NCBI GenBank assembly: GCA_015654675.1
Contig: JAATGM010000019.1
Span: 1-64,000 of the forward strand
DNA: 64,000 nt
Origin: Planctomycetota bacterium
Lineage (GTDB): Bacteria; Planctomycetota; Phycisphaerae; UBA1845; UTPLA1
Direction of reading: 5' to 3'
Of the stretch, positions 32,790 through 64,000 are shown piece after piece. Under the pieces are notes generated by a model, which ran no database searches, was not told the origin of the DNA, and saw only the letters and a program-made list of their open reading frames with translations. A program made the translations under genes and the position numbers. Every line of letters begins with the position of its first letter. Within the stretch, counting starts at the first letter, position 1.

Positions 32790-33068
32790 TCGAGATCGCG
32801 ATTAGCGTCCTATAAATCGTGCATCGGCAGCAATTTGGCAAATGCGGTGTCGGGCCGACGTCCAGCGTCGTCTTATGGTAGTCGATAACGGGAACGGTGT
32901 ATGTCCGCCCCGTTTGAGGCCCCCTATCGCTCTCCATGGCGATGCCGTGCAAATGTCACATGGCTGGGCGGTAGAATGATTTAGCGGCTTAGCCCATGTG
33001 CGGGCGAGCCGTACCTGATGCGATCGACACGCCGAGGGAACCGAGCGTGCGCGACAGGAAGTCGGGAC

Positions 33069-35585
33069 ATGTCGAATCGAAAATCGCGCCTGCTGGCGGG
33101 TTGTGTTGCAGCGATCGCACTTGGTGTGACCGCTATGGCTTTTGCCGGTCCACAGAATGGCATTGCCAACGACGATAACGACCCAGCGGTCCTGCGTTTG
33201 AAGATCGGAAAGATTTCGCTTGCTCCGTCGGCGTCGCTGACACGTGGCGCCGCGGGTGCTCGCATCTCCGCTGAAGGACGATTTATCGTTCAACTGGATG
33301 GGCCGTTGACGCCGGAACGAGCCGACGCGCTGGCACGGGCGGGCGTCACACTCGGCGACTACCTTCCGAACTTTGCTTACGTCGTTCGGCTTCCGGGTGG
33401 GTTCAATGTGGCCCAGCTCGGCAATCTGCCATTTGTTCGCTGGGTCGGGCCGTTCGACAAGAGTTGGAAACTCGATCCTGAGATCGGTCAATTGCAGCTT
33501 CGATCGGCGGCGCGACAGGCGCTGGCCGGGCAGAATCTCATTCAACTCAGCGTATCGCTCTTTGCCAACGAGCCGCCGAATGCCGCGTTGGCGTCGATCC
33601 GGGCGATTCCCGGAGCCGCGATTCTTGCGACGGAGCGTTCCGGGGACGTGGTCCGGTTCTGCATCAACATACCGCGCAGCGAATACGCACGGCTGGCCGA
33701 CATTCCCGCCATACAGTGGGTGGGCGAAAACGATGAGCCGCAGCCGCGCAATTACCCCGGCAATTGGATCAATCAATCGAACGTGCCCGACGCATTTCCC
33801 ATCTGGGCCCACGGACTTACGGGCATTGGACAAATCGGCGGGCTGATCGACGGCAACTATTTCGGCACCGAAGGACTCAACGCGGACCATTGCTCGTTTC
33901 GGGATCCCGGCGGCAATCCGATCGGACCGACGCATCGCAAGCTGGTCGCGTACTTTGGGACAAACGCCTACGACATGCATGCGACGCACACTTCCGGCAC
34001 GATGGTGGGCGACGAACAGCCGATTTCGGGCACGACGACGAACCGCGGCATCGCATACGACGCCAAGCTCGCATTCACAAATCTCAACCAACTCAACACC
34101 AATAGCTTGATGACGATGCTTACACAGGATGCGGGTGCGGGTGCGCGAGTCCACAGTAATAGCTGGGGCGGCGGGAGCACTCTTTACAACCAGTGGTGCG
34201 TCGATATCGACAAGTTCATGTACGACGACGAGGACCAGCTGGTCGTGTTTGCCGTGATCAATGCGGGGGGCGTGAAGAACCCCGAAAATGCCAAGAATCT
34301 TCTGGCCGTCGGTGCGTCCGGCGACACGCCAAATCAGGCGAACTACTGCTCAGGCGGTAGCGGACCGACGTCCGACGGCCGGCGACGACCAGAGATCATG
34401 GCGACAGGTTGCAGCGTCTTCTCCGCTGTAAATTCCGGCGCTGTGTGCGACTTTGCGGCGGACCAAGGAACGTCCATGGCGTGTCCGCTCGTGGCGGGTT
34501 CGGCAGTTCTGGTGCGACAGTACTTCATGTCCGGCTACTATCCGACCGGAGCTGCGAACGCGGTTGATTCCTGCACGCCATCCGGAGCCCTGATTAAAGC
34601 CGTGCTTATCAACTCGGCAGTCGACATGACCGGCATCGCCGGCTATCCCTCGAATCAGGAGGGATGGGGACGCATGCTGCTCGACAACGCCCTCTATTTT
34701 TCGGGCGATTCTCGCAAGCTCGCACGGCTGGCTGATGTGCGGAATGCTTCCGGAATGGCGACGGGAGAGACGCGGACCTTTACTGGTCTGATCAATAGCT
34801 CGGCCGAGCCGCTGCGGATCACGCTCGCCTGGACGGAAAAGCAGGCGGCCCTGAACGCGAACCCTACTTACATCAATAACCTTGACCTCGAAGTGACCGT
34901 CAACTCGACGCTTTATCGCGGAAACGACTTTGCGGCCGGCCAATCAACCACCGGAGGGCCGAGCGACACGAAGAACAATGTCGAACAAGTGTTGCTGCTT
35001 GCGCCGCCGGTCGGGCCGTTCAGCGTGACGGTGCGGGCTACGGCGGTGAATACGCCGGGGCTGCAGGGGTTTGCGCTGGTGGGCTCGGGCGATATCGGGG
35101 GCGCACCGACGCTTGCGTCAATTTCGCCCAATGCCGCCCTCAGCGACGACGTCGTATCCGTCACCGACCTGCTTGGATCCGAGTTTCGGTCCGGCGCCGG
35201 TTTCCAGCTTCGGCACTCGAGCAGCTCGCCGATCATCGATGCGACGGGCGTTTCGCTGGTCAGCGCGGGCAAATTGACCGGAACGCTCGACCTGACTGCC
35301 GCACCGGCCGGTTCGTATGACGTCATCGTGACCAACCCGGACGGGCAATCGGCCACGCTCGCAAATGCCTTCAGCGTGAGTGTCGTGTGCAGCCCGGCCG
35401 ACCTGAATAACGATGGGTTCATCGATGGGTTGGACATTCAGCCGTTTATGAACGCCGTGATCGCCGGCGGCGGCACTCCGAGGCAGCTCTGTGCCGCGGA
35501 TGTTAATCAGGACACCCTGATCGATGCCAACGACATCTCGGCATTTGTTCAGTGCCTGACCCAGACCGGTCCCTGCCCGCCATAA
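33069..35585 (+). CDS. Secreted subtilisin-like (S8) protease with TIG-like and dockerin domains
   Basis: 838 residues. A signal peptide (LLAGCVAAIALGVTAMAFAG) is followed by a propeptide-like region of about 220 residues. The S8 triad is plausible: Asp in GQIGGLIDGNYFG (about 259), His in YDMHATHTSGTMVGD (about 305, where most S8 enzymes read HGTHVAG), and Ser in DQGTSMACPLVAGSAVLV (about 467). C-terminal beta domains include a TIG/IPT-like segment (PTLASISPNAALSDDVVSV). It ends with a dockerin pair: DLNNDGFIDGLDIQPFMNAV and DVNQDTLIDANDISAFVQCL. The ATG at 33069 follows AGGAAGTC. It is divergent from rluD, with a 279-base gap. Confidence 0.92.
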   Translation: MSNRKSRLLAGCVAAIALGVTAMAFAGPQNGIANDDNDPAVLRLKIGKISLAPSASLTRGAAGARISAEGRFIVQLDGPLTPERADALARAGVTLGDYLPNFAYVVRLPGGFNVAQLGNLPFVRWVGPFDKSWKLDPEIGQLQLRSAARQALAGQNLIQLSVSLFANEPPNAALASIRAIPGAAILATERSGDVVRFCINIPRSEYARLADIPAIQWVGENDEPQPRNYPGNWINQSNVPDAFPIWAHGLTGIGQIGGLIDGNYFGTEGLNADHCSFRDPGGNPIGPTHRKLVAYFGTNAYDMHATHTSGTMVGDEQPISGTTTNRGIAYDAKLAFTNLNQLNTNSLMTMLTQDAGAGARVHSNSWGGGSTLYNQWCVDIDKFMYDDEDQLVVFAVINAGGVKNPENAKNLLAVGASGDTPNQANYCSGGSGPTSDGRRRPEIMATGCSVFSAVNSGAVCDFAADQGTSMACPLVAGSAVLVRQYFMSGYYPTGAANAVDSCTPSGALIKAVLINSAVDMTGIAGYPSNQEGWGRMLLDNALYFSGDSRKLARLADVRNASGMATGETRTFTGLINSSAEPLRITLAWTEKQAALNANPTYINNLDLEVTVNSTLYRGNDFAAGQSTTGGPSDTKNNVEQVLLLAPPVGPFSVTVRATAVNTPGLQGFALVGSGDIGGAPTLASISPNAALSDDVVSVTDLLGSEFRSGAGFQLRHSSSSPIIDATGVSLVSAGKLTGTLDLTAAPAGSYDVIVTNPDGQSATLANAFSVSVVCSPADLNNDGFIDGLDIQPFMNAVIAGGGTPRQLCAADVNQDTLIDANDISAFVQCLTQTGPCPP

Positions 35586-36032
35586 CTCGCAATAGGCGAT
35601 TCAAGAGCCAGCGCATTCCACTTCGGTCGTAAATTCCGGAGCATAGCGATTCGGACTGGCAACGATGTCGTGCCACCGGAGCCTAGTTCTCTTACGCGCG
35701 GTCATGGATTCTGAAGTCGCACCTATTCCGTCGATCGCCGACGCCCGACATCATGTTGTGGTGGGACTTGAATCGAAGGTCGGGGGCGACGTCATGCGTC
35801 TCAGTGCGACGAATAGTGTCGGAGGTGTGGAGGACTGATGAGTGGGGCAGCTATGGGCGTTCCAGTACGCGGCAAACGGGCGAAGTCGCGAGCGGATCGT
35901 TCAGCGTGCGTCAAATAGTCACGCGGCGCAGACTAAATGCAGCGCAATCCAACGCGGATAATTGAGGCCGAATGGGCTGGAAGTTTGAGAAGTGTGCCGG
36001 AGTGGATTGCTGAATTGACCGGATGAGGGGTA
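35586..36032. other. Intergenic region after the S8 protease
   Basis: About 450 bases without a convincing gene. Short frames here lack ribosome sites and protein-like composition. No plus-strand terminator for the protease was recognised; the only strong hairpin lies at 36033-36070 and is oriented for the minus strand. Confidence 0.6.
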
Positions 36033-36070
36033 CAAAAAGAGAGGGTCGCGACCTCTCGGTCGCGACCCTC
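36033..36070 (-). terminator. Intrinsic terminator of the 36.1-37.0 kb PEP-CTERM gene
   Basis: GAGGGTCGCGACC, loop GAGA, GGTCGCGACCCTC is a perfect 13-bp stem on the minus strand followed by TCTTTTTG. It starts 26 bases after the stop. Confidence 0.92.
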
Positions 36071-36096
36071 GATCGTAAGCACAATGAACGCCGGAC

Positions 36097-36972
36097 TTAG
36101 CGTCGGCGGCGGATCAAGGCGATGGCGCCCAGACCCAGGAGACCCATCGTCATGGGCTCGGGGACGGCCGGAGAAACGAACTCCCAGCCGAAGTTGACCG
36201 GCGGCGCGCCGCCAGCGGGATAACCGAAGTCATCGACAAAGCCCTGAACCTGCGGCGTACCGACGTTGTTCGGGAAGCCGTTGTTCGCGCTGAGGCCGAA
36301 CCAGTACTCATTCGGATTGCTGTAGCCGACATCCGGGACGTCAGCAAAGAAGGCCTGGCCCAAGTTTGACAACTGAGCCAAGCTGGCGCCGGTCCCACCG
36401 GCGTTGTTGTCGTACTGGACGCCCGCCCAGAACTTCAAGCTGCCCGGGACCTTGAAGCCGGTCGCGGTCGGTGCGAACGTCGTAAAGAAGCACGAGACCG
36501 AACCAGCGTTGAACGTAATCGGATTAAACGTAAAACCCTGCTGGGTCGCCGGCGTTCCGCTGGCGTAATACGTGGAGGGGCTATTGGCGCCGTCCGGCTG
36601 GCCATCGTCCGCCCAGAAGCGAAGTCGAGCGCGAGCCGAGACCGTTGATGTGTTGAAGTTTGCAACACAGAACGTGAGCTGGCTGATGTCGCCACCCGGC
36701 AGGGTGCCCGGGGCGAACGTTATGTCGTCCATGAGGATCGGGGTGATGCCGTTACCAGACTCAATGCCGGCAGTGGTGGCAATTCCCTGGCCGCCTGACA
36801 GCGTGGTTACGTTTGAGTAGCTCGCGCCCGGGGTGACACCGCGGACAGACGGCGTACCGCCGTTGAGCGGCGCTGACCAGAGCAGCTGCGCTCCCATTTC
36901 GCCGTTCATCTGGGCGAGGGCCGGCGCCGTAAACAGCGCGAGGGCCGCAACAGTGGACAGGATTCGCTTCAT
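36097..36972 (-). CDS. Secreted PEP-CTERM protein
   Basis: 291 residues. Signal peptide MKRILSTVAALALFTAPALA, probably cut after ALA or LAQ. The body is Gly/Asn/Ser-rich and beta-like, with DDITFAPGTLPGGDISQLTF and an invariant-looking NFGWEFVSPAV before the tail, as in other jelly-roll-type PEP-CTERM proteins. The tail is VPEPMTMGLLGLGAIALIRRRR. Function is unknown; a surface or matrix protein sorted by exosortase is likely. AAGGAGGAAACAG precedes the ATG at 36972. A strong promoter-like pair lies 72 bases upstream, and it has its own terminator. Confidence 0.92.
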   Translation of the reverse strand: MKRILSTVAALALFTAPALAQMNGEMGAQLLWSAPLNGGTPSVRGVTPGASYSNVTTLSGGQGIATTAGIESGNGITPILMDDITFAPGTLPGGDISQLTFCVANFNTSTVSARARLRFWADDGQPDGANSPSTYYASGTPATQQGFTFNPITFNAGSVSCFFTTFAPTATGFKVPGSLKFWAGVQYDNNAGGTGASLAQLSNLGQAFFADVPDVGYSNPNEYWFGLSANNGFPNNVGTPQVQGFVDDFGYPAGGAPPVNFGWEFVSPAVPEPMTMGLLGLGAIALIRRRR

Positions 36973-37043
36973 TCTGTTTCCTCCTTTTAACCTTTTCCAA
37001 AAAACCGATGACCGGTGCTTACTTTCCCACACTCGGACAGATG

Positions 37044-37072
37044 ATTTAACCACAAAAAGCACTGAAAGTCAA
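37044..37072 (-). promoter_or_regulatory. Sigma-70 promoter of the PEP-CTERM gene
   Basis: Minus strand: TTGACT, a 17-base spacer, then TTAAAT. This is the best sigma-70-like pair seen in the window. Transcription would start near 37037, giving a leader of about 65 bases before the ATG at 36972. Confidence 0.6.
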
Positions 37073-37267
37073 TAGATGATGCGATCCAGGGAGCGCTGTG
37101 ATTCGTCTGGCGCCTCGATATGATTGCTGAGATGCGTCGAACATAAAGTCTTATAAGACATCGATTTGCTAATTGGCCCGATATTCCACAAAAATTCACA
37201 GCCAGCGTACGGAAGGCAATACTCTGAATTTTGGATGCGAAACGGCGGAAAACGAGACGCAGGTCGC

Positions 37268-37900
37268 CTATGTGAACTTCAAAGCCCGTTCAGACGGCCG
37301 TCTTCGGAGTACCAATCCGGACATGAAGGCCAGCAAGAATCCCGTCGTTGGCTCCGGGGCGACCAGGAAGCCAAGTGCAAATGGCTGCGAGGCTAGCTCA
37401 AGCCCGGACGGGTCAGTCAGCTGAAACCAGACGGTAAAGCTATCTCCAGCATGCACCTGCGATCCGTCCGCCCGGTAGAACACATCTTCGTGTCCCAGCC
37501 CGCCCGCGAAGGGGAATAAGAACGATTCGCCGTCCGTACCGAGGATCGGGGTGCCCGTGAAGGGATCGAGCATATCGAACGCCGTGGTCGAAGCCCCCAA
37601 CCGATTGAGCGTCAATTCGTGACCGGCCAGCAATGGGGCAGGGATTCCTTCCTTTGCCGACCAGCCCGGGAACTCGGAAACGAAGTAGCCGTCGTTCAGG
37701 CCGTCGCCCGGAAACAGCAGGATCTGCTCGCCGGAAAGGAAGTGATGTCCGTCCGGGTCCGAGATGACCAGCTGATGCTGGGCCGAGCCATCCTGACCGA
37801 GCAGGAAATCAATATCCTCCTCGCCGGCCAGGGCGGGCTGGGTCAATGCGGGCGCGCTCACAGTTATTAGCAGGACGATGAATTCGATTCTTCGCTTCAT
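37268..37900 (-). CDS. Secreted protein with PEP-CTERM-like tail
   Basis: 210 residues with a signal peptide (IEFIVLLITVSAPALTQPAL). The mature part is acidic and beta-rich (DIDFLLGQDGSAQHQLVISD, GLGHEDVFYRADGSQ). The tail APEPTTGFLLAFMSGLVLRRR fits the PEP-CTERM pattern, but nine residues (PSERALKFT) follow the Arg cluster, which is unusual. GGAGG is eight bases before the ATG at 37900. It follows the dockerin gene by 70 bases on the same strand. Confidence 0.82.
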   Translation of the reverse strand: MKRRIEFIVLLITVSAPALTQPALAGEEDIDFLLGQDGSAQHQLVISDPDGHHFLSGEQILLFPGDGLNDGYFVSEFPGWSAKEGIPAPLLAGHELTLNRLGASTTAFDMLDPFTGTPILGTDGESFLFPFAGGLGHEDVFYRADGSQVHAGDSFTVWFQLTDPSGLELASQPFALGFLVAPEPTTGFLLAFMSGLVLRRRPSERALKFT

Positions 37901-37970
37901 TTGAATTGCCTCCGATGGTGTCACGGGCCGTTCGGACCACGCCGACACACGCATGAAAAAATTCTGGTCA

Positions 37971-39719
37971 CTAGGGCAGAAGACTCACGAACGTCGAGAT
38001 GTCGCGGCCATTCGCGCTGCCATCGCCATTCAGGTCGCTGCGTTGCACGTACTGAGGATTTGCTTCGAGCCCCAATAATACGCGCGCCAGCAACACGCCG
38101 TCCGCCCCGTTTACAACGCCATTTCCGTCGATGTCTCCGGGAAGCGCCGCTGCGGGCAAGACTACCAACGACAAATTTCCACTTGCATTCTCGATTGGAT
38201 AACTCGCGTCAAAATCGTTGATACTGTCGCTCACTCCGATCGCGATCGCATAGGGTGATCCGCTCGCGGTGCCTGCACTCGGCGTCCCAGAAATCACTCC
38301 CGTGTTTGCGTCTAATGAGAGCCCGGAGGGCAGGCCCGTCGCCGACCAATTTTTGAACGGCGGCGTACCCTCTGCAGACAGCGCCGCAGAGTAGGGCTGA
38401 CCTTCGTGGGCTGCCGGAAGCATTGTGGAGGTGATTGCGAGCGGGGCCTTTTTAAACGCGAGAATGGCGAAGACACCAATGCGATTTGAGCCGGTGTAAT
38501 CGCCAAACGCGATCGATTTCAAAGTCCGTGTCGAGTCGGCTGGTGTCCCGGCCCGGAAGAAAAACATCGTCGCCCCGGCGGCGCCGTCGATGGCGACTCC
38601 CGTACTTCGAACGAATCCCACCGACCGATCTGCGTTGGCTCCCACCGTGGTCCATGGCCGCGGCGTCGCGGATTGCTGCCAGTCGTCGATCGGTCGATAC
38701 GGGAGCCAGTCCGACGTTCCCTGACGAATCGCAACGACTCTTGTGCTGTTGTCGGTGTATGTCAGTGTCACGTTCAAAGTGTCGCTGGACGTGAATGCGC
38801 CGGCCCCCGCAACGAGGAACTCGAGCGAGAGAAACTGATCCGCCTGTCCGGTCGCCATGAGATCCAGAATCGCGCTGGTTGAAAGCGAGCCGTTGTCCAG
38901 CAACACATTCAACGCCGATCCCGTGAGCCCAGCTCCACCCGGTCCGCCAAGCTGGAAGCCGTCCAACTGACCGTTCGCCGGCAGTCCAGCAGTGGTCCCG
39001 TAATTTCCGTTCAAGACCCAGCTTTTGCCGCCGGCGTCAAACGGCATGGGAGTGTCCGTGCCGTCACTGTCCACCACGTCCGCGTTGAAGATGCTGCTCA
39101 TGTTGAGCGGAACAACCGTTGCGCGGCCTGGGACCGTCGTGAAGTAGTATGTGTAATTGTCCGACGGCAGCCACTGATCAGACGTGATCTGCATGTCCCA
39201 GCGCGTTAGACCTGGCCGACGCGCCAGCCAGAGCGGGTGAACATGCCCGCCATTCGCCGATGTGCCGAAGGCGTATTCGTCATTGTCCTCCACCATGCGC
39301 GGCAAACCGCTCGGGGCGTAGACCGCGAACTCGGCTGGGCGGCTATACGACAGACGCTTGAATCGCACGCTGAAGTCCGCCGGCGGCCCCGGAAGCTGGC
39401 TGATATCGAGGTTGTATGGTGACGCAGCGTAATCAAGCCCCAGATCGCTGAACCCGCTCGTGCTGAACGAGTAGCCGCCGAAGCGCGGTTGTGCGTACGA
39501 GCTCGCCAGGTTGATTCGAACGATCGGAATGATCGTCCCGGGCGACACGGAGGGGCCGTGTCCGGAGGCCCCGATCAGCGAACCATCAGTAAACAGCTTC
39601 AGCGGAGTTCCGGCCGGCGGATTCACGCCGACGACGATGTGATCCGGAGATTGCGCCGCCAGGCGCCCTGCCGCGACTAACACAATTCCAGCAACGAAAC
39701 TTAGTCGATTTTGAATCAT
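37971..39719 (-). CDS. Secreted protein with putative Ig-like and dockerin domains
   Basis: 582 residues with a signal peptide (LSFVAGIVLVAAGRLAAQSP). The first 400 residues form an unrecognised beta-rich region. About residues 430-500 look like a putative-Ig repeat: LPAAHEGQPYSAALSAEGTP then ATGLPSGLSLDANTGVISGT. It ends with a dockerin pair, GDIDGNGVVNGADGVLLARV and SDLNGDGSANGRDISTFVSL. The start overlaps the stop of the upstream pseudopilin gene by four bases (ATGA), so the two are made together. Confidence 0.88.
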   Translation of the reverse strand: MIQNRLSFVAGIVLVAAGRLAAQSPDHIVVGVNPPAGTPLKLFTDGSLIGASGHGPSVSPGTIIPIVRINLASSYAQPRFGGYSFSTSGFSDLGLDYAASPYNLDISQLPGPPADFSVRFKRLSYSRPAEFAVYAPSGLPRMVEDNDEYAFGTSANGGHVHPLWLARRPGLTRWDMQITSDQWLPSDNYTYYFTTVPGRATVVPLNMSSIFNADVVDSDGTDTPMPFDAGGKSWVLNGNYGTTAGLPANGQLDGFQLGGPGGAGLTGSALNVLLDNGSLSTSAILDLMATGQADQFLSLEFLVAGAGAFTSSDTLNVTLTYTDNSTRVVAIRQGTSDWLPYRPIDDWQQSATPRPWTTVGANADRSVGFVRSTGVAIDGAAGATMFFFRAGTPADSTRTLKSIAFGDYTGSNRIGVFAILAFKKAPLAITSTMLPAAHEGQPYSAALSAEGTPPFKNWSATGLPSGLSLDANTGVISGTPSAGTASGSPYAIAIGVSDSINDFDASYPIENASGNLSLVVLPAAALPGDIDGNGVVNGADGVLLARVLLGLEANPQYVQRSDLNGDGSANGRDISTFVSLLP

Positions 39720-40489
39720 GGGTTACTCCCATCGTCCGGCGTGTACCAGCCCTGCGGCGAGTGCGGAAATCCCGGATCGAACCGGTCGATCTCCAACGCC
39801 TGGCTGCCCGGATTGACGTAAAACAATTGATCAAAGCCGAAGTGGTCGGCATGCCCATCGGCGAACAAATAGTTCTCTTTCCCCTGATGTCGCTTCAAAG
39901 CCAGGTCGTATTTCGGATCAGCCCCACCGTAGCCGGTGAGCGGATTGGTGCCCCACTTGTCGGCGTGAAAGTGATCCGGATAGATCGGCGCGCCGTTCTG
40001 CCCGGTCTCGGCCAGCTCGGCGACATAGACCAGATCACTCGCCCCGCGCAGGTGCGTCTGAACTTCGTACCCGTAGGGTGGAATCCCCGACGGATTCCCG
40101 GGGAACCAATCCTCGTCATTCGGACCCATAAAGACGTTGATGCCGTAACTCGTCACGCGCCGCAGGGCCGGATTCGGATCCTCAAAGTTCGTCGCCTGAT
40201 CCGACGGGCAGCGATATTGCAGCTTCATCTGCGTGTGTGGCGCCAGCGTGTCGAGCCAGGCCGTGCCCGGCTGATAGCCACCGTGGGCTTGCGACAGGGG
40301 AAAAACGTCGTCGTTCGTGTTGAAGTAGCATTGCAGCGCAGCCCCGACGTCATGCAGTGCTGCCAGGCATTTTGTGCTACGCGCGGTGTTACGGGCGCTG
40401 GACAGAGCCGGCAGCAGGATGCCAATCAGGGTCGCAATGATTGCGACGACCACGAGCAATTCGATCAGGGTAAATCCACGCCGTGACAT
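39716..40489 (-). CDS. Pseudopilin-like protein with H-X9-DG C-terminal motif
   Basis: 257 residues starting MSRRGFTLIELLVVVAIIAT: a short basic leader, the prepilin peptidase site G/FTLIE, and one hydrophobic helix. KRHQGKENYLFADGHADHF holds the H-X9-DG motif (His, nine residues, Asp-Gly) of planctomycete/verrucomicrobial DUF1559-like pseudopilins. After the helix, SARNTARSTKCLAALHDVG is the usual conserved stretch. It is presumably processed by a prepilin peptidase and assembled by a type II secretion or type IV pilus-like machine, not encoded here. It is coupled by a four-base overlap to the dockerin protein. Confidence 0.93.
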   Translation of the reverse strand: MSRRGFTLIELLVVVAIIATLIGILLPALSSARNTARSTKCLAALHDVGAALQCYFNTNDDVFPLSQAHGGYQPGTAWLDTLAPHTQMKLQYRCPSDQATNFEDPNPALRRVTSYGINVFMGPNDEDWFPGNPSGIPPYGYEVQTHLRGASDLVYVAELAETGQNGAPIYPDHFHADKWGTNPLTGYGGADPKYDLALKRHQGKENYLFADGHADHFGFDQLFYVNPGSQALEIDRFDPGFPHSPQGWYTPDDGSNP

Positions 40490-40660
40490 GGGCGGACTCC
40501 TTTCGATTGGTCGAGAATTCGAATGACAGCTCGGACAACGCCGACAATGGAATTGTGATTGGCGTTGATCGGGGCGGGTCAGAATCGCGCGAAGGCGCGC
40601 AATGCGCCGGATGCGATTAGACCGTGGCCGATCTCTCGTCCGAGATACGGAAAGACTTGT

Positions 40661-40951
40661 TTAGAGAGTGGGTGGGGCGCGTGGCGAGGCGGGCGCTTGC
40701 CGCGGCAAGACCGGCGCGACGCGATCGGATTCTGGGATGATTTGGACGACCTTGTCGGTCGAAAGCGTAAGTGCCGGAGGAGCGTCGGTGTGGACGGTCC
40801 GGCCGATCTTGATGAGATAGCAGGTGCCGCAATCCTGAGCGGCCGGCGACGCGGCCGAGCAATCGTGATGGTGAAACGCGAGAACGGCGCCCGAGGCAAC
40901 CCAGCCGACAAGGGCGATGAGAATCAGAGATGTCAGCTTGCGATGTGACAT
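40661..40951 (-). CDS. Small exported His/Cys-rich protein
   Basis: 96 residues from the ATG at 40951 (an ATG seven codons earlier is also in frame). A signal sequence, LTSLILIALVGWVASGAVLA, is followed by FHHHDCSAASPAAQDCGTCY, a cluster of three His and three Cys that could bind a metal, and then a Pro-rich tail. No strong ribosome site. Similar short proteins (DUF2946-like) are linked to copper, but the match is only to the general layout. It lies 171 bases upstream of the pseudopilin gene on the same strand. Confidence 0.5.
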   Translation of the reverse strand: MSHRKLTSLILIALVGWVASGAVLAFHHHDCSAASPAAQDCGTCYLIKIGRTVHTDAPPALTLSTDKVVQIIPESDRVAPVLPRQAPASPRAPPTL

Positions 40952-41411
40952 AACGCTTATTGAATGACCCATTATAAACGCAATTTCATTCGCGTCAATG
41001 GTGATCGGACGAAGCGGCGTACTGTCGTCACCGAACTCGCTATTAGTCCCGGGTCGTCTGAGCTGGTGGCGTGGCGTGGCGTGGCGATGGGATTGCTTCC
41101 CACTAACGACTAAGGATGGCTTGCAAGTCTCTGGGGCTGCGCTAGTTGGGGGGCACGTGGGATTTGTGGGATGATATTGGATGTCGGAAATCGGAAATGT
41201 GTTTCTCGTGCAGCTGTCGCGGTACGGATCAAGTGAGTCCAGGATTCGCCATTATGTGTTAGGAAAGTGTTTTGATCATGTCAAGGATGGGGCGGGGAAT
41301 CTTCAGGGCGAGTTTTATGGCTTGAGATACTGGGTGCCGGGTTCGAGCCCGGCCTGGCCTCCCCCCGGGCTCGCCGCCGGGGGGAGGTTGGGCCAGATTG
41401 CGAGGCCCTGA
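40952..41411. other. Intergenic region with stem-loop and short tandem repeat
   Basis: 460 bases with no convincing gene. It contains four copies of GTGGC in tandem at 41066-41085. A GC-rich stem-loop at 41351-41394 pairs CCTCCCCCC with GGGGGGAGG, with further pairing outside. The hairpin lies just past the stop of the 1328-residue gene and may protect or end its mRNA, although there is no T-run. Confidence 0.55.
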
Positions 41412-44400
41412 TTACGGGCCGGTTAGCAGGGCGTTGACCATGTTCTGGATGTCCTTGCCGTTGAGCACGCCGTCGCAGTTGGTGTCGGCGAGCACGACGT
41501 CGTAGACCTTTACGGGGGTTCCGCGCAGGGCATTGACGAACAACGGGACATCGGCGGCGGTGGTCGCGCCGTCTTCGTTCATGTCGGCCACCACGCCAAC
41601 GGCGCAGTTAGACGTCTTGACGGAGATGGCTTCGACCGGATCGGGGACGCCATCGCCATCGGTATCGGCCTCGAGCTTGATCTCGATGGGCTGGAACTGC
41701 TCGTTCTCCAGGACCGTGACGGAGATCGGGAGCTGTGTTGTTCCACCCGGAGCCAACGAGAGCGTTCCGATGACCGGCTCGCCCGGCGGCAGCCCGTTCA
41801 AACTGATGGCCTGGATGTCGGGGGCGTTATCCGAATTGGGGTAACGCGCCGTCCAGCGGTAATCGACCGTGCCGGATGCCGAGGTCGATTCGTTTGTGAC
41901 GCCGAGCGAGAAGTCGCGAGTTGTTCCTGCGATGACAACCGGGACGTTGCAAGGCGGATTGCAGATGATGCACAGATCGCGTGTGCGGCTGACCGTGTTG
42001 GAACACGTGAACTGCCGGCCCGTCGTGGTATTGGTGACGGCGAGCTGGTAGCAGCCGGTGACGATCGGCGGCGGAATCGGCATGCCGGTCGGCAGGGTCA
42101 GGTTGACGCAGATGGTGCGGCACTGTCCCGGTACGACTGGCCCGGTGGAACCGCTCGACGGACTGAAGATCATCGGGCCCGTTGCCGCGCAGCCGGCGCC
42201 GCCGGTCGGTCCGGAGAGCGACCAGTTGAAGTTAGCATCCTGATCGCAGTAATTGCAGATCTCGATGCAGACCTTCTTGGAGTTCTCGTTGCGGCAGAAG
42301 ACGATGGCCGGCGTGTAGCAGGTGTCACAGCACTTGCCGAACGTGCGGGCCTTGTACAGGTCGATGATTTCCTGGTTGGTGAGTGCACGCTTGAAGAACT
42401 CCCATTCGTCGAGCATGCCGTTGAAGACGGCCGGGTTTCCGCCCGAGAAGACGTATTCTTTGCCAAAGAGCAGAGGCACGGTGTTGTTGACGCTTCCGAG
42501 GACGTTCGAGTTGGTGAACGACTGGAAGACACCGTCGACATAGAGGCGAATCTGGTTGGGGTTGCCGCGCTTCACGACGGCGGCGACGTGGTGGCACTGG
42601 CCATCCTGAACGTTGAAGCCGCTAGTCAGGAAGTTGGCGAAGGGCGGACTTCCGATCTGGAAGCCGATGTTGCCGCCGGACCAGAGGAAGAAGGCATATC
42701 CGACGACGTTGGGGAAGGCGCCGCCGCGCTTGTCGACCATGGGCTGGTAGCCCTGAACGTTGGTCTTGACCCAGCCCTCGAGGGTGAAGTCACCGGTACC
42801 GAAATTGATGTCGGCGGAGCTTGCACCTGTGTTCGGCACGCTGACGAAGCCGTTCGTGCCGTTGAAGACTAGGCCTTGCCCGACGCAAGAATTGGCCGGG
42901 GTTGCGACGGTGACGCCGCCGGAGGGCGTTCCGTGATTCAGGAAGTTGACGCGATCCTTGACCGGAGCGACGCCGTTCATCGGCCACCAGTCAACCATGT
43001 TCTGCGGGGGCTTCTTGCACTCGCAGACGCAGTGATAAAGGATGCCGCTGGGGGTTCCATCCGGATTCGGCGCCTCGGGAACGGCGACGACGTTGCAGAG
43101 ACCGCCGTTCGGGGTCGGGCAGGTGCCTTCGCAGACAACGTGGCCCTGGATGACGCGCGGATGGCAGGGCTGCGGGTCGCAACTGCACTGAGTGATGGTG
43201 AAATTACCTGAGCCGGCGGGGAATTCGCGAATCTCGACCGGCGTGCAGGGCGTACCGTTCGGGCACGGACCAGCGCAGGCGGATGCAGTCGTGCCGGGGT
43301 TGGTGGGGTCCGGCGCGTTGACGACCTGGCAGGTGGGCGGGTCCTGCGTGCAGCCGCAGGTGAACACCACTGTTCCATCGGCGTTGCTCTGGCTATTCGG
43401 AGCACACGTTCCACCGGGAGGAACCGGGCATGGATCGATGCAGCTTGGGGGAATATCCGGGCCGTTGTACTGGATTCGGCAATGGCCGTCGGGGAGACAA
43501 TCGCATGCGGCGATTTCGTATTGGCCGGCGGAATTGCGGATGACCTTGGTCGGTCCACAGATGCTGCCCGGCGTCGGGCACTGAGTGCATTGGCGCGTGA
43601 GCGGGTCGTATGCGCAAACGGGCGGATTGGCTTCGGGGCAGGAGATTTCGACATCGCCCTGCTGGAACTTGTCCACCGAGCCGGTGATCTGGTTGGAGTC
43701 GATCATCAAGCCGTTGGTGTAGGGATTGGTGCCGGCATAGGTCATTCCACCGAGGCCGTAGATGAATGGATCGGCGGCGGGCGGATTACCGAACTTGATG
43801 GCATCGCCCGTGGCCCAGACGTTGACATTGATACCGGCGCCGCTCGCGTAGTCGTAGTCGCAGCCGCCAGCAGACGAATCGGGGATTGAGGGATTGCCAA
43901 CGGTGAAGTTTGAGCCGGAGGGCGTCCAGGTATTGTTGACCTTGCAGAACTCGAGCAGGCGACTCTGGTGCGCGTAGGAGGTGGTGTCGTCGAGCATGGT
44001 TCGCTCGGCAAGGAGCATGCAGCATGTGTTCGGCCGGAAGCTGATGTCGGAGACCGGATTCGAGAATCCGTTCGCTCCGTACGGCGGCATGGAGAGTTCG
44101 AGCTGCTCGGTGCCTGCCCAGAATTCGCCATTGGGGAAGAGATTGACGGACCAAATCTCATTCGCCACCGCGCCGGACGGGCGGCCCGTGTCTTCACGCC
44201 AGACGCTGTAATACAAGCGTCCGCGACCAACTCGGACGGCCCAGACGCGCTGACCGCGGCCGGTGCCCGCGTGCGGGGTGAGCGGGGAGAAACCGTTGGG
44301 GTCGGGCGGCGGTGATCCGCCGAGCATGGTGCCGGTGGAGTGTCGCCAGGTGGATTGGACGACACCAGCGGTGTTCAGGCGGTAGATGCGGCCATCTTCG

Positions 44401-45398
44401 TGATTTGTGACGTAGAGCATGTGATGCTGGCATGAGAAGCAGATATTGCCCAGGCCCGGGTAGCAGTCCGGGGGCGTCGTGCAGCCGGTAATCAGCGCAT
44501 TGGGCAGGACGGCGAAGACTGACGGAATTCCGGTGTTGGTGTCGATCTTGTAGATCGCGCCTGCGGATCCGCCTGTGATGGTTCCGACGGCGTCGCCGGG
44601 GCCCATGGAGGGGTTGCCGTAGCAGGAGGCGTGGGCGAGATAGGTGTTGCCAAGGTCGTCGAGCGTGACGCCGAATACCGTACCGAGGTTGGATTGGGTC
44701 CAGTTCTGCGGGCCACTGGGGGTGAAAAAGGGCGCGTACCAGTTAACCATGGAACTCGTGGGTGGCTGCGAGCTAATATCGATGTAATCGACTACGCGAT
44801 TACTGATGCCGGCCTGTTGGGTCAGGACGGCGACACCGGCGTTGAAGCCGCCGATGGTCTGCGAGAGGAACTTGGGCTTCTTGCCGCAGCAGTCTTCGCA
44901 GGTCTGGCAGGCGTTGCCGTTACATGCGATGGAGAACTGGCCGGTCCCCGGCGGAGTGCCGGGCTTGCAACCGATGCGGATCATCATGGGCTGGCCGCAA
45001 TAGGTTTCGCAAACGACGGAGCTTTGTGGGTTTCCGCAGCCGTCATCGTCGCAACAGAAGGGGGAGGGGCTGGGGGGAAGAGAGGGGACGCCGCAGCCCA
45101 TGTAGTAGAAAATCTTGGTGTTTACGTTGGTGAGGCCGCAGGTCTGGATGGTGGCCATTCCGCTGCAGGTGGGGGTCCAGCAGAACCAAATATCGTTGAC
45201 GACGCCGCCGCACCAATCCTGACCTTCGGGGCTGGTGGTGGCCTGGGTGAGGTCAAAATTGAAGAGACCGGTGCCCGAGATGGCAGTGGCACTGGATGCG
45301 TTGTCGTTGACAGGTGGTGCGGCCATCAGAGCGGTTGAAGCCGACACAAGGGATGCTAACGCTAAAGCCAGTAATGAACGTGGGTAACGAGCGAACAT
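41412..45398 (-). CDS. Giant secreted protein: Cys-rich repeats, LamG-like domain, dockerin
   Basis: 1328 residues with a signal peptide (SLLALALASLVSASTALMAA). Residues about 30-160 are a Cys-rich beta domain (VNDIWFCWTPTCSGMATIQT). About 180-580 suggests a propeller-like region (LDDLGNTYLAHASCYGN, HHMLYVTNHEDGRIYRLNTA). About 585-797 holds four Cys-rich repeats. About 800-1000 is a LamG/concanavalin-like domain (FTLEGWVKTNVQGYQPMVDK, YVDGVFQSF). Another Cys-rich and an Ig-like stretch lead to a dockerin pair: DMNEDGATTAADVPLFVNAL and DTNCDGVLNGKDIQNMVNAL. It probably binds glycans or surfaces outside the cell. CTGGAGGCGACC precedes the ATG. Confidence 0.9.
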   Translation of the reverse strand: MFARYPRSLLALALASLVSASTALMAAPPVNDNASSATAISGTGLFNFDLTQATTSPEGQDWCGGVVNDIWFCWTPTCSGMATIQTCGLTNVNTKIFYYMGCGVPSLPPSPSPFCCDDDGCGNPQSSVVCETYCGQPMMIRIGCKPGTPPGTGQFSIACNGNACQTCEDCCGKKPKFLSQTIGGFNAGVAVLTQQAGISNRVVDYIDISSQPPTSSMVNWYAPFFTPSGPQNWTQSNLGTVFGVTLDDLGNTYLAHASCYGNPSMGPGDAVGTITGGSAGAIYKIDTNTGIPSVFAVLPNALITGCTTPPDCYPGLGNICFSCQHHMLYVTNHEDGRIYRLNTAGVVQSTWRHSTGTMLGGSPPPDPNGFSPLTPHAGTGRGQRVWAVRVGRGRLYYSVWREDTGRPSGAVANEIWSVNLFPNGEFWAGTEQLELSMPPYGANGFSNPVSDISFRPNTCCMLLAERTMLDDTTSYAHQSRLLEFCKVNNTWTPSGSNFTVGNPSIPDSSAGGCDYDYASGAGINVNVWATGDAIKFGNPPAADPFIYGLGGMTYAGTNPYTNGLMIDSNQITGSVDKFQQGDVEISCPEANPPVCAYDPLTRQCTQCPTPGSICGPTKVIRNSAGQYEIAACDCLPDGHCRIQYNGPDIPPSCIDPCPVPPGGTCAPNSQSNADGTVVFTCGCTQDPPTCQVVNAPDPTNPGTTASACAGPCPNGTPCTPVEIREFPAGSGNFTITQCSCDPQPCHPRVIQGHVVCEGTCPTPNGGLCNVVAVPEAPNPDGTPSGILYHCVCECKKPPQNMVDWWPMNGVAPVKDRVNFLNHGTPSGGVTVATPANSCVGQGLVFNGTNGFVSVPNTGASSADINFGTGDFTLEGWVKTNVQGYQPMVDKRGGAFPNVVGYAFFLWSGGNIGFQIGSPPFANFLTSGFNVQDGQCHHVAAVVKRGNPNQIRLYVDGVFQSFTNSNVLGSVNNTVPLLFGKEYVFSGGNPAVFNGMLDEWEFFKRALTNQEIIDLYKARTFGKCCDTCYTPAIVFCRNENSKKVCIEICNYCDQDANFNWSLSGPTGGAGCAATGPMIFSPSSGSTGPVVPGQCRTICVNLTLPTGMPIPPPIVTGCYQLAVTNTTTGRQFTCSNTVSRTRDLCIICNPPCNVPVVIAGTTRDFSLGVTNESTSASGTVDYRWTARYPNSDNAPDIQAISLNGLPPGEPVIGTLSLAPGGTTQLPISVTVLENEQFQPIEIKLEADTDGDGVPDPVEAISVKTSNCAVGVVADMNEDGATTAADVPLFVNALRGTPVKVYDVVLADTNCDGVLNGKDIQNMVNALLTGP

Positions 45399-46259: not shown

Positions 46260-49200
46260 ATGTCGCGCTGTCCCTCGATCGAGGAGCTAGAGGTTGCGCT
46301 GAGGGACTCTCCCGAAGGGGAGATCGCGGCGCATGTCGGCATTTGTACGCGTTGCGGTACTCGCGTGGCGCGCATGCGACAAAACCAGGACCTGCTGAAA
46401 GCGGTTCGCGGCGTTGGCGCGCGGCAGCTCAGCGGGGCCATGAGCGGCCGGTCGCCGCCCGCGCTGGAGCGACCGCAGGGGTTGGCGGGGTACGAAATCA
46501 CCGGGGAGATTTATCGGGGCGGTCAGGGGGTCGTCTATAAAGCGCTGCAGAAGTCGACGAAGCGCACGGTGGCGATCAAGGTTGTATTGCGCGGCGCTTT
46601 CGCGACGCGGCGGCAGCGGAATCGATTTGAGCGCGAGATCGAGATTGCGGCGCGGTTGCGTCATCCAAATATCGTGACGATTCACGAGAGCGGCGTTACA
46701 TCGGACGGGTCGCATTACTTCGTCATGGAGTATGTCGAGGGGGCGGCGCTGGACGCTTACTGGCGGAACGCGGAAGCCGCGAATGGCGAAAGCGCGGGAA
46801 TATCCACAAAGCTGAAGGTGTTTTCGAAGATTTGCGATGCAGTCAACGCGGCGCATCAGCGCGGCATCATTCATCGCGACCTCAAGCCGGCCAATATCCT
46901 GATCGAGGCGACAGGCGAGCCGCGCGTGCTGGACTTCGGACTGGCGAAGGCGGTCGGGGTCGAGTTCGGCGGCGGGGAGGAATCGGCACAGACGCGGACC
47001 GGCGAATTCATGGGGACGTTCAGTTATGCGGCACCGGAGCAGGTGCGTGGCGATCCTGATCTTGTCGATACGCGGACTGACGTCTATGCGTTGGGAGTAA
47101 TTCTCTACCAGACGCTGACGGGAAAGTTTCCATATCCGGTGGACGGGTCGCTTTCGGCCGTGCTGCGGAACATCACAGAGACCGAGCCGGAGCTGCCCTC
47201 GGCGCATGCGGCGGAGGTGGGCGACGAGCTGAATACCATCGTGCTGAAGTCGCTTTCGAAAGAGCGCGAGCGGCGATATCAGTCGGCGGCGGCGCTGCGG
47301 CGTGACATTGAGAGTTTCCTGGCGGGCGAGCCGATCGATGCGAAGCGTGACAGCCGTTGGTATGTGCTGCGCAAGACGGCCCGGCGGTATCGGGTCGCGC
47401 TGAGCGTGGCCGCGATCTTTGTTGTGCTGGCCGGAGGTTTCGGGGCTTCGATGGCGATATCGGCGCGGCGGACGGCGCGCGAGCGCGACCGGGCGCAGGC
47501 GGCGGAGAAGTCGGCGGAGCGAAATGCGACGCAACTTGCGGCGGCTCTGAGCGAGAGCCGCGTTCAGCAGGGCACTTCGCTCGCGGCTGCTGGAAACGTT
47601 GCGGCCGCTGAGGAAGTCTTCTGGCGGGAATTGCTGTCGGGACCGGATGACGGGATCGCGAACCCGCGAAAATCCGGTCGACGCCGGGCGTTCTGGGCAC
47701 TGTCGGAGATGTATGCGGCGGCGCCGTGCCTTGCGACGTGGCGTCTGGGTGACGCGGGGCGATGCCAGTCGGGCATCGATCGGGAAGGCCGAGTCCTGAT
47801 GGCGACGGACGACGATGGGCCGTTGACCTTTTGGGATATTCCCACGGCACGGTTGCTTTCGAGCCACGCGGGGGGCGGGGCCGATTTGGTGGGAATCCTG
47901 ATGGCGCCGGCCGGAGATTTGGCGGTGCTGCTGGACGGGGCGAGCACGATTCACTTGTGGAGTCTGGATCCAAAAACTGGAAAGGGCCTCGAACGCCGGA
48001 GCTTTGGCGCGCCGGATCGTGGGTTCATGCGGATCGCGATCAGTCCCGACAGCCGCTCGATGGCGGCGGGTTTTCAGTCGAACTCGGTCTGGATTTGGGA
48101 TGACCTGAGCCGAAACGAACCGCGGCGCGTTTGCGAGACGGCGGATGAAGTTACTTCGTTGTCGTTCGACGAGCATGGCACGGCCCTGGCGATCGGATTG
48201 AAGAACGGTGAAGTTCGTTTACAGGAACTTGTCAATGCGGGCGGTAAGCGGTGGGCGACGAATGCGCACAACTCACCGGTGCGATACGTCTCATTCAGCC
48301 CGGATGATTCGGAACTGGCGACGGCAGGCGCTGACAACGATTGCACGGTTCGGATGTGGGAGTCGGCTGGCGGGCGGCTCATTCGGTCGTTTTCGGGGCA
48401 CACAAGCTACGTGAACTCAGTGGTATTCAGTCCGGATGCGAAGCGACTCGCGTCGGCCGGAAGCGATCGGACGGTTCGGATCTGGAACTCGCGGACTGGC
48501 GATCTGATTGCAACCTATGGCGGGCACTCAGCACCGGTGATGCATGTGCGGTTTTCGGGCAATGGCGAACGGGTGGCGACGACGAGCAACGACTTGACCG
48601 CCCGGCTCTGGGATGCCGAGCCGAATCGGATGCTGCTCGGCCTGCCTGATCAGAAGCTGACTGTGATGAGCGCGTGCGCGTCCCCAGACGGGCGCGTTGT
48701 ATATTCGGCCGGTTCGGATGGAACGATCCACGAGCGCGACGCGGTGACCGGCGCGATTCGTGCTGACTTCATCGGGCATGGCGGGCCCGTGTCGGGTGTG
48801 TGCGTGAGTCCGGATGGCGCGCGGCTGGCCAGTGCGAGTTATGACCGGACACTCAGAGAGTGGGACACGAAAACTCGAGACATGATTCGCGAGTATCGGG
48901 GCTTCGACTACAACGTGATGTGCGCGGCTTATCATCCCGATGGACGCCTGCTGGCGACGGGAAGCGACGACGGGGCGGTGCGAATCTGGGATACCTCCAA
49001 CGGAGCATGCGTACGCACGATTGAAGGACCGGCCGAGTCGAAGCGGCGACCGACCATTGCGTTCAGCCCAGATGGGAAGACGCTGGCTGCGGCGGAGGGT
49101 CGGTCATCGATTGTGCTTTACGACGTGGCGACCGGGGCGCAAAGGGCGATTCTGAAGGGACATCATGGCCAGGTGCGCTGCGTGACTTACTCGCCGGATG

Positions 49201-61404: not shown

Positions 61405-64000
61405 TCACGGGCCGAGCAGCAGACGCTGGACGAACGGCTGAATGTCGCGGCCGTTGGTGAGCGTGTCGCAGTTCATGTCGGCGGCGGCGACGTGTTGGGC
61501 GTTGACATCCGTGCCGCGCAGGACGTTGACGAAGCCGGGGACGTCGGCGTTGTTTACCAGCCCGTTGTTGTCGATATCGCCGAGGATGGCGGCGAGGGGG
61601 ATGAACTCGTAAGCGCCGCGATCAACGATTGGGGGCGTGCCGACGCCCGTGTCGGTGGCGCACGGGTCGTTGGCGAAGCGGGCGTTGCCGGCGACATCGG
61701 TTGTCACGCCGACGGGCACGGCGGCGTTCTGGCCCGAGTCGATGGCGGGGGAGCCGCGGAGGGGGCGGAGATTGTCGTCGATTGTGCCGATGATGTTGTC
61801 GGCGCCGGCCGGGTCGGTGAATTGCGGGTTGGAGCCGAGGTTGCCGGTTCCGCCGAGGCCGCCGGTCAGGCCGTGGATGATCGAGTAATTCACCGTCGAG
61901 GACGAACCATTGTAGTTCGTGAGCTGCGATGATTCGGTGCTGCCGCTGGGATCGGTGTTCTGCCAGAAGATGCAGTTCTTGATTGTGGCGGTGGAGGCGT
62001 CGTTCCAGATGCCGCCCGCGCCCCACTGGGCCGAGTTATTGCTGGCGGTGCAATTGATGAAACTTGCCGAGGAGCCGCTCCATTGTTCGGCGGTTGCACC
62101 GTAGCCGTCCGTCGACGTATTGCCGCTGAAGACACAATTGGTGATGACCGGCGTGCTGGCGTCGGTGACGAAGACGCCGCCGCCGCCCCATTCGCCAGTG
62201 TTACCGAAGAAGCGGCAGTTGGTGACGACGGCCGAGCTGTGGTCAGCGATCCAGACGCCGGCGCCGTATTTCGCGTGGTTGGCTGTGAACGTGCAATCGC
62301 GGATGGTGGGCATGCTGGCGAAGGATACAACGCCACCGCCGCTCCAGCCGGAGGTGTTTTGATTAAACGTGCAATTGGTGATCGTCGGCTGACTGCCGTT
62401 GGACATGCCGATCGCGCCGCTGCTGCCCGTGACGTTAACAATGGAGCCGCCGGTATTGGTGGTAAAGGTAGAGCCAGTGACGACAGGGCTGGCGGCGTAG
62501 ATCCAGATGGCGCCGGCGTCGTTGGCGCCGACGTTGCTCGTGAATGTGCAGTTGTTGAAGTGTGCATTCGCACCGTCGTGGCAATAGGCGCCCGCGCCGA
62601 AGGTGGCCGTGTTGCCGGTAAAGGTGCACTGGGTAAGCGTTGGTGAGTTGGGAGACGTGCCGCCGGCAATGAAACCGCCGCCTCCGTTGCCGAGGGCGGC
62701 ATTGGTGTTGAAGTTGCACTGTGTCAGCGTCGGACTGGCGTTCCAGCTTCCGAACGCGCCGCCCCATGGCGACATGTTGCTGGTAAAGGTGCAGTTGGTG
62801 AAGGTCGCGCCGTCGCTCAGTTCGCAGTTGACCGCTCCGTAGTCGGCGGCGGCCGTGTTGTTGGTGAAGGTGCAGCCGGTGTAGGCGGGAGAGGACTGAT
62901 AGCTGCTCGCCGCGCCACCGAGCGAGCCGGCCGTGTTGGCGTCGAAGGTGCAGGAAACGAATTGGGAATTGGAGCCGTCACTGTCGCTTGCTCCTCCGCC
63001 AATGGTCGCGTTGTTGGCCGTGAAGCGGCAATTGCGAATGGTCGCGCCGCTGCAGCGAGACCGGTAACCGCCGCCGCTTTCGTTGGGGTATCCGTCATTC
63101 GCATTGCCGGCGGTGATGGTGAACCCGTCGAGGATGGCGGTCGAATTCAATCCGGTGCCGTCGACGACGTGATAGGAATTGTCGGAGTTGTCTCCCGAGA
63201 CGCCGATGTCGCCGGAGAGAGTGGTGACGTTGGCGGCGATGTTTCGCTGGGTGAGAAGCGATTCCGTGCCATTGAAGCCGCCGTAGATCGAGACGCCGTT
63301 GATCGGGCGGAATGAAAGATCACGTACAAACAGTGGATTCGTTTGGCCGCGATTGGGCTTGTAGGTCCCCGCAGCGACCCAGACTTCGGTGACGACGCCG
63401 CGCGATGACACGGCCTTTCCAATTCCCGCCTGGAGATCCTGAATAGCGGTGGCCCAGGATGAACCGTCGCCTCCGGGAGCAGCGGCCGCTCGAACAAAGA
63501 GTCGACTGGGCGGCGGCGAGACGAGCGTGCTCGGACGGAAGTTTGCAATGGTGAAGGCCGTGTTGTTATGGGTGAGCACGTTGTTGCAGGACGTATTGAT
63601 GTCGTCGCCAGCGACTCCCATCGCTCCGTGGTTTCCAAGCGGGCCGTTGTAGTCCATGTTGGGGTTGGAGAAGTAGAGAATGTTCGTGCCGGGCGGATAG
63701 GCCATGATGGTCTTCCAGACGCTGCCGGGCTCGCGATAGCCATAGGAATAATTGAAGAAGCCGCAGCAGGGTGTCGTGACGCGATCATGCTGGCAACCAA
63801 AGTTGTGGCCGACTTCGTGGGCGAGAGTTTCGAAGGGGGCGTTGTCCTGTCGCATGACGCCAAAGGTGGAGCGGCCGTCGTCATCGGGGCCGAGTGTTGC
63901 GAGGAAATAGGCGGCGCCGCCGGCATCGAGGTTATTGACGAAGAGGAACACGAGGTCGGCACCGTATGTGTCGCGGTCGGCGTGGACGCTGTCGAGGAAG
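61405..64000 (-). CDS. Secreted reprolysin-like protease with beta-helix and dockerin (5' end beyond window)
   Basis: The open frame runs to the window edge (at least 864 residues); the codons beyond 63951 read FLDSVHADRDTYGADL, so the start is outside. The zinc motif is LAHEVGHNFGCQHDRVT (HExxHxxGxxHD), followed by SVWKTIMAYPPGTN with the Met-turn, as in metzincin M12-type enzymes. After VRAAAAPGGDGSSWATAIQD about 550 residues form a right-handed parallel beta-helix of NCTFTSN-like coils. It ends with a dockerin pair, GDIDNNGLVNNADVPGFVNV and DMNCDTLTNGRDIQPFVQRL. It is convergent with the amidohydrolase gene, with three bases between stops. Confidence 0.92.
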   Translation of the reverse strand, partial: FLDSVHADRDTYGADLVFLFVNNLDAGGAAYFLATLGPDDDGRSTFGVMRQDNAPFETLAHEVGHNFGCQHDRVTTPCCGFFNYSYGYREPGSVWKTIMAYPPGTNILYFSNPNMDYNGPLGNHGAMGVAGDDINTSCNNVLTHNNTAFTIANFRPSTLVSPPPSRLFVRAAAAPGGDGSSWATAIQDLQAGIGKAVSSRGVVTEVWVAAGTYKPNRGQTNPLFVRDLSFRPINGVSIYGGFNGTESLLTQRNIAANVTTLSGDIGVSGDNSDNSYHVVDGTGLNSTAILDGFTITAGNANDGYPNESGGGYRSRCSGATIRNCRFTANNATIGGGASDSDGSNSQFVSCTFDANTAGSLGGAASSYQSSPAYTGCTFTNNTAAADYGAVNCELSDGATFTNCTFTSNMSPWGGAFGSWNASPTLTQCNFNTNAALGNGGGGFIAGGTSPNSPTLTQCTFTGNTATFGAGAYCHDGANAHFNNCTFTSNVGANDAGAIWIYAASPVVTGSTFTTNTGGSIVNVTGSSGAIGMSNGSQPTITNCTFNQNTSGWSGGGVVSFASMPTIRDCTFTANHAKYGAGVWIADHSSAVVTNCRFFGNTGEWGGGGVFVTDASTPVITNCVFSGNTSTDGYGATAEQWSGSSASFINCTASNNSAQWGAGGIWNDASTATIKNCIFWQNTDPSGSTESSQLTNYNGSSSTVNYSIIHGLTGGLGGTGNLGSNPQFTDPAGADNIIGTIDDNLRPLRGSPAIDSGQNAAVPVGVTTDVAGNARFANDPCATDTGVGTPPIVDRGAYEFIPLAAILGDIDNNGLVNNADVPGFVNVLRGTDVNAQHVAAADMNCDTLTNGRDIQPFVQRLLLGP

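Follow-up and report, generated by a model that had tools for sequence, protein, structure and literature searches.

C-terminal type I dockerin tails in a planctomycete mostly carry a putative recognition motif in one of two repeats, in either position

Introduction

Dockerin–cohesin pairs are best known from clostridial cellulosomes. In the type I dockerins of Clostridium thermocellum, a Ser-Thr pair at positions 10-11 of the calcium-binding loop makes the main hydrogen bonds to the cohesin. Binding in the nM range needs only one intact repeat, whichever of the two it is, and disappears when both are lost (PMC4728124). Dual-binding-mode dockerins of this kind, including CaDoc0917 of C. acetobutylicum (PDB 6kg9/6kgc/6kge), bear the recognition motif in both repeats. 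By contrast, the single-binding-mode dockerins of Ruminococcus flavefaciens groups 1, 3 and 6 have asymmetric repeats and one cohesin-binding face; the structures from group 1 all use helix 1 as their fixed, dominant face (PMC5429695). Published inventories reach 223 dockerins in R. flavefaciens (PMC5429695) and over 200 in B. cellulosolvens (PMC8063739).

The nearest published idea to what we describe here is the planctosome, a hypothetical system of the freshwater Nemodlikiaceae (Phycisphaerae) (Andrei et al. 2019, PMC6461901). It shares with the genome studied here a planctomycete, non-cellulolytic cohesin/dockerin set with a dockerin on an M12B reprolysin; its protein combining a cohesin, HYR repeats and a dockerin is paralleled here by a 2246-aa protein on contig C19, and its lamin-tail protein with a cohesin by a 2097-aa protein on C30. 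The present set differs in its larger scale (about 118 tails and 11 cohesins), two cohesin classes, an adaptor of the form CohA-CohB-dockerin, scaffolds bearing CotH and a position-swapped one-site rule in the tails. A Pfam scan of five scaffold-like frames reported no P-domain of the proprotein convertase type, which belongs to the planctosome's anchor. Another likeness is the S8-protease double dockerin dDoc_0689 of C. thermocellum (probably PDB 8x39/8x3a; PMC12484212), which also joins an S8 protease to dockerins and for which cell-surface anchoring was proposed; however, unlike the S8 protease described below, it carries two full dockerins and comes from a cellulosome-producing clostridium. 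The NCBIfam model NF041540, dockerin_GC ("GC-type dockerin domain-anchored protein"), likewise takes a C-terminal dockerin as an anchoring tail, a name that we did not find in the open-licence papers searched. What is new here is the one-site rule, with the recognition loop either first or second, of which we found no earlier description in the literature searched (open-licence papers only). Moreover, the dockerin inventory is of an order comparable to the published counts, in a planctomycete without a cellulosome signature and with cohesins that Pfam mostly misses.

Results

The tail in the window and across the genome

The window, the whole stretch of 64,000 nucleotides analysed, encodes four otherwise dissimilar secreted proteins, in which the first-pass annotation had noticed a paired EF-hand tail. 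These prove to be real reading frames, each ending in a Pfam type I dockerin (Table 1), with the tail occupying the last 55-65 residues and comprising two EF loops in all four. When the proteins are searched, two of the Dockerin_1 matches (E 2.8e-4 and 3.2e-3) fall slightly under the Pfam cut-off; when the genome is searched with the same profile, all four tails lie above it. The NG.DIQ-like text that had been pointed out in the second repeat of three of the tails is indeed present (NGRDISTFV, NGKDIQNMV and NGRDIQPFV), and the fourth, that of the S8 protease, carries the motif in its first repeat instead (DGLDIQPFM), which became the key detail of the analysis. The start of the reprolysin/beta-helix gene lies outside the window, the frame being 1160 aa long in the contig. 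An Rfam search of the window gave no match.

Table 1. Dockerin-tailed proteins of the window and their tails
Feature	Coordinates	Strand	Pfam matches
Secreted S8 (subtilisin-like) protease with C-terminal dockerin	33018..35585	+	Peptidase_S8 E 2.5e-25; Dockerin_1 E 1.3e-6
Dockerin tail of the S8 protease, with the recognition loop DLNNDGFIDGLDIQPFM ahead of the other loop DVNQDTLIDANDISAFV	35397..35582	+	
Ig-like (He_PIG) secreted protein with C-terminal dockerin	37971..39719	-	He_PIG E 5e-10; Dockerin_1 E 2.1e-8
Dockerin tail of the Ig-like protein; both repeats, DIDGNGVVNGADG and DLNGDGSANGRDISTFV, have Gly at loop position 10	37974..38141	-	
1328-aa secreted protein with LamG-like lectin fold domain and C-terminal dockerin	41412..45398	-	Laminin_G_3 E 1.5e-20; Dockerin_1 E 2.8e-4
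Dockerin tail of the 1328-aa protein; recognition loop second DTNCDGVLNGKDIQNMV	41415..41588	-	
Reprolysin (M12B-like)/right-handed beta-helix protein with choice-of-anchor Q domain and C-terminal dockerin	61405..64000	-	Dockerin_1 E 3.2e-3
Dockerin tail of the reprolysin/beta-helix protein; recognition loop second DMNCDTLTNGRDIQPFV	61408..61584	-	

The first-pass annotation had proposed searching the whole genome for further tailed proteins and for cohesins. In the assembly (G000; 4.93 Mb in 62 contigs, 96% complete) the former search returns 142 Dockerin_1 matches at E<=1, spread over 135 distinct frames; 92 of the matches reach E<=0.001. The weakest of these are not all trustworthy; the profile also matches in 9 of 14 control genomes at E<=1 and in two at E<=0.001. 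The position of the domain is distinctly C-terminal: 114 of 129 closed frames stop within 20 residues of the end of the Pfam match (median 9). A crude signal-peptide test is positive for 106/113 tail proteins as against 88/213 control frames, the latter being a mix of real and spurious frames. The bodies to which the tails are attached (118 proteins, last 400 residues scanned) include Ig-like, beta-helix, propeller, HYR and TSP3 domains, S8 and M12B/M64 peptidases and a single GH44; reprolysin-like families, the window search aside, match 2 of the 118. In places the tails adjoin "choice-of-anchor" domains, which NCBI finds beside other C-terminal anchors. Across the 118 tails the calcium ligand positions D1, N/D3, D/N5 and D12 are strongly conserved, as befits type I dockerins (PF00404), and the tails match PDB dockerins as well as Pfam. 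We take it that type I dockerins serve here, genome-wide, as C-terminal docking tags; there is good support for the tag function. The earlier proposal of a sorting or attachment tag is in this sense borne out, as a general C-terminal tag on over 110 unrelated proteins of exported type, and no cellulose-specific role was seen for the tails.

Two other identities for the tail were considered and set aside. PEP-CTERM calls for a PEP motif, a transmembrane helix and a basic end, and the tails end in the dockerin. The dockerin_GC model, which is abundant in the relative G035, matches only 3 of the 118 tails at E<=0.001, none of the G000 tails rising above its 29-bit cut-off (best 27.3).

A few tails stand apart. 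One, at C60:68062 (L112), is symmetric in that its two repeats each read NNSDISGFN, and perhaps has a different partner. Near-identical tails, GRDIQPFIACIASGNLATNDCGCADLN and close variants, occur on different contigs (C5:191061, C62:82264 and C62:20710), suggestive of a recent expansion of a gene family.

A single putative recognition repeat in either position

In the 118 tails with two clear loops, which share a mean identity of 38%, glycine occupies loop position 10 in exactly one EF loop in 104 cases (43 in the first and 61 in the second), in both in 9, among them the Ig-like protein of the window, and in neither in 5. Were the repeats independent, one would expect 60, 31 and 27, respectively (Fisher p about 1e-17). 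The motif surrounding this glycine is NGxD(I/V)Q. Redundancy-thinned sets still show the rule, with p 1.4e-6 for 50 tails below 50% identity, weakening to p 0.02 for 30 tails below 45%; a strict literal pattern (regex) finds a single site in 84/94 tails. Gly10 is the sole strong mutual exclusion among 58 residue/position tests, the next being Gln14 (p 0.003). The independence test, the redundancy thinning, the strict pattern and the controls at other positions together rule out chance as its origin. Further, the swap is clean, in that the first repeat of one class has a profile similar to that of the other class's second repeat, and a single type of linker is found with both orders, six tails of each. 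Position 10 of the other repeat is free, featuring A, S, T, P, L or V.

The best PDB match of the tail profile is CaDoc0917, both loops of which read NGRD, a motif that it has in common with the tails, and the deposited mutations that select its binding mode, R16D/R49D, fall at loop position 11. Since the positions conserved in the tails coincide with known cohesin contacts, here as in the C. thermocellum dockerins, we read the Gly10 pattern as one of partner recognition. The tails differ from the dual-binding-mode dockerins in having the motif in exactly one repeat; they share asymmetry with the single-binding-mode dockerins of R. flavefaciens, but in place of a fixed face the recognition repeat comes first or second within one genome. 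The tail resembles a docking tag with a single site, which may lie in the first or the second half of a pseudo-symmetric domain. The swap rule offers a sign, from sequence alone, of selection on partner recognition beyond calcium binding; it bears on the open question of the purpose of dual binding and names the exact residues for mutation.

Cohesins and scaffold-like proteins

The first-pass annotation had seen no cohesin or scaffold, which is correct for the window; the genome, by contrast, encodes about 11 cohesin domains, an adaptor and large scaffold-like proteins. It had itself held that a cohesin scaffold binding these tails would count against its reading; the cohesins, one half of that, are found. 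They comprise five CohB domains, recognized by sequence, and six CohA domains, recognized by profile and predicted fold. Pfam Cohesin finds just one above its cut-off and three weakly in the genome search; seven of the 11 were used to build our profiles and match these by construction, and the four new ones match with E 5e-20 to 2e-43. All 12 members of the CohB alignment match Pfam Cohesin and PDB cohesins. The sequence match of CohA to cohesins is weak, leaving its identity uncertain at that level: narrow profiles of CohA and CohB align with 1% probability, wide ones with 93%. Its AF2 model (pLDDT 98.1), however, aligns with 4uyp_A over 129 residues (Z 14.4, rmsd 2.3), and all the top matches in the fold search are cohesins; as modeled, CohA has the cohesin fold.

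The two classes meet in a 395-aa adaptor, CohA-CohB-dockerin, at C58:37724-38611, and this adaptor recurs in three relatives (G001, G005 and G015). Four proteins of 2308, 1810, 2097 and 2246 aa each couple one cohesin to a divergent second-type dockerin near the end, and a 3346-aa frame shows this dockerin with no cohesin detected. The second-type dockerin (D-F-xIL-x-RWN...DFTxxQxNF or a relative) sits behind an Ig-like segment in most such frames. The genome also codes for CotH-LTD proteins with cohesins and for an 846-aa beta-helix protein combining CohA with a C-terminal tail, and contig C58 bears several scaffold-like frames in a row. No protein with more than two cohesins was found in the 62 contigs, with at most two per frame among the 11.

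Several scaffold-like proteins (L105 at C58:23500-43400, L073, L055, L123 and L124) have a common C-terminal block consisting of an Ig-like segment, the divergent dockerin (DFxILxxRWN...DFTxxQxNF) and a third, lone EF loop ending in ...LFAxxxGLxLxPEFExKL; this block looks like an X-dockerin dyad. Apparent fusions of cohesins with CotH kinase and lamin-tail domains occur in several genomes (L073 on C30 and L303 on C45 of this genome; L124 and L125).

The tail code in related genomes

All 41 relatives that we compared, among them Planctomycetota and Phycisphaerae metagenome assemblies, encode dockerins; detectable cohesins occur in only about half, and across the family we saw no tracking between dockerin and cohesin numbers. 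Two relatives display the same one-site code, namely G014 (one-site 31, both 1, none 9), which is a single contig, and G009 (22, 1 and 4, respectively). Neither yields a cohesin by any of four profiles (Pfam Cohesin, CohB, wide CohB and CohA), and the same is true of other tail-rich relatives (G006, G029, G035 and more); G007 and G016 show only weak partial CohA matches. In these cohesin-negative, tail-rich relatives either the cohesins have diverged beyond reach or another receptor reads the tag, which lowers our confidence in a cohesin as the general partner; equally, these genomes let one ask whether a dockerin works without a cohesin.

The code itself varies. G029 is symmetric, 7 of 10 tails having a Gly10 in each repeat (NGFDID), and in other families, from which few tails were read, there are different symmetric signatures, such as NIFDL in G030 and NPVDLF in G034/G037. 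Given these differences among relatives and families, lineages appear, from their sequence signatures, to own separate tail codes. Three genomes with other dockerin signatures (G034, G037 and G031) encode 18-33 CohA-like cohesin domains each, far above their CohB complement.

Discussion

Around the computed tail, its C-terminal position, the one-site rule and the cohesin domains, we infer binding, calcium dependence and a cell-surface location in the following manner. The tail would fold as two pseudo-symmetric EF-loop/helix repeats, exactly one of which, in nearly all copies, presents the recognition residues: Gly10, often Arg/Ala/Asp11, Ile/Val13 and Gln14. Because the domain is pseudo-two-fold symmetric, either repeat may take the recognition role; the partner would read a single face, to which the tail would bind turned by about 180 degrees. 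The likely partner, as far as the sequences indicate, is a cohesin, most probably one of the approximately 11 on the scaffold-like exported proteins, that is, the CohA-CohB-dockerin adaptor and the giant proteins with a cohesin and a divergent second-type dockerin. The outcome would be an assembly at the surface or in a matrix, dependent on calcium and non-cellulolytic, that gathers proteases together with beta-helix, Ig-like and propeller proteins. We favor this reading as a whole with little better than even confidence. Counted against it are the one-site tails of G009 and G014 in genomes with no detected cohesin, the lack of tracking between dockerin and cohesin numbers, the window's own Ig-like protein with its two glycines and the stoichiometry of about 118 tails for 11 cohesins.

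It is also conceivable, although we would place it only as a tentative alternative, that the tail is a sorting or anchoring tag for a non-cohesin receptor, such as a surface or secretion factor, with the cohesins serving some tails or another layer. The first-pass annotation had set the tag against cohesin-based assembly. As worded, this contrast does not survive the finding that scaffold-like proteins carry about 11 cohesin domains, but the cohesin-free reading is kept alive by family members that share the code and have no detectable cohesin, one of them a single contig, and by the universal presence of dockerins among the relatives. The NCBI name for a related tail, with its reference to anchoring, and the choice-of-anchor domains beside the tails point the same way. 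Against this, the recognition positions are known cohesin contacts and no candidate receptor was found; moreover, the absence of cohesins is weak evidence because they diverge fast and Pfam misses most of those present here. In a family-wide form, which we consider doubtful, the dockerin would be a proteome-wide sorting or anchoring signal for a non-cohesin receptor, with one recognition repeat in either half being necessary and sufficient, and the cohesin scaffolds a later addition in some members.

That the tail has no partner and is simply a calcium-binding C-terminal cap, its one-glycine pattern inherited from an asymmetric ancestor, seems unlikely to us. One such ancestor followed by shuffling of tandem repeats could give both orders, as a frame with four dockerin matches (C11:77316-78245) illustrates, and copy-and-paste spread would account for the genome-specific signatures; the Gly10 exclusion could thus partly be inherited. 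However, a single asymmetric ancestor accounts for part of the pattern and not for its retention: at least one Gly10 is kept in 113/118 tails, in either repeat and despite the low mean identity, even though position 10 of the other repeat varies. A partnerless calcium cap would not need this, which argues for recognition, and neither the absence of strong exclusion at any other position nor the occurrence of both orders within one linker class sits well with a cap. An ordinary cellulosome is the least credible reading and very improbable: it would explain the architecture of dockerin, cohesin and adaptor, but the multi-cohesin primary scaffoldin is lacking among the frames found, and most tail proteins are of Ig, beta-helix, propeller or protease type, with the lone GH44 in the last 400 residues scanned.

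Some neighbors of the dockerin-tailed genes in the window also deserve mention. A PEP-CTERM protein (36097-37062, -) lies between two of them, placing two different C-terminal tags side by side. A prepilin-like N_methyl/DUF1559 protein (39716-40489, -) directly adjoins the gene of the Ig-like protein, and at 46260-49628 (+) a Ser/Thr protein kinase is fused to a long WD40 propeller.
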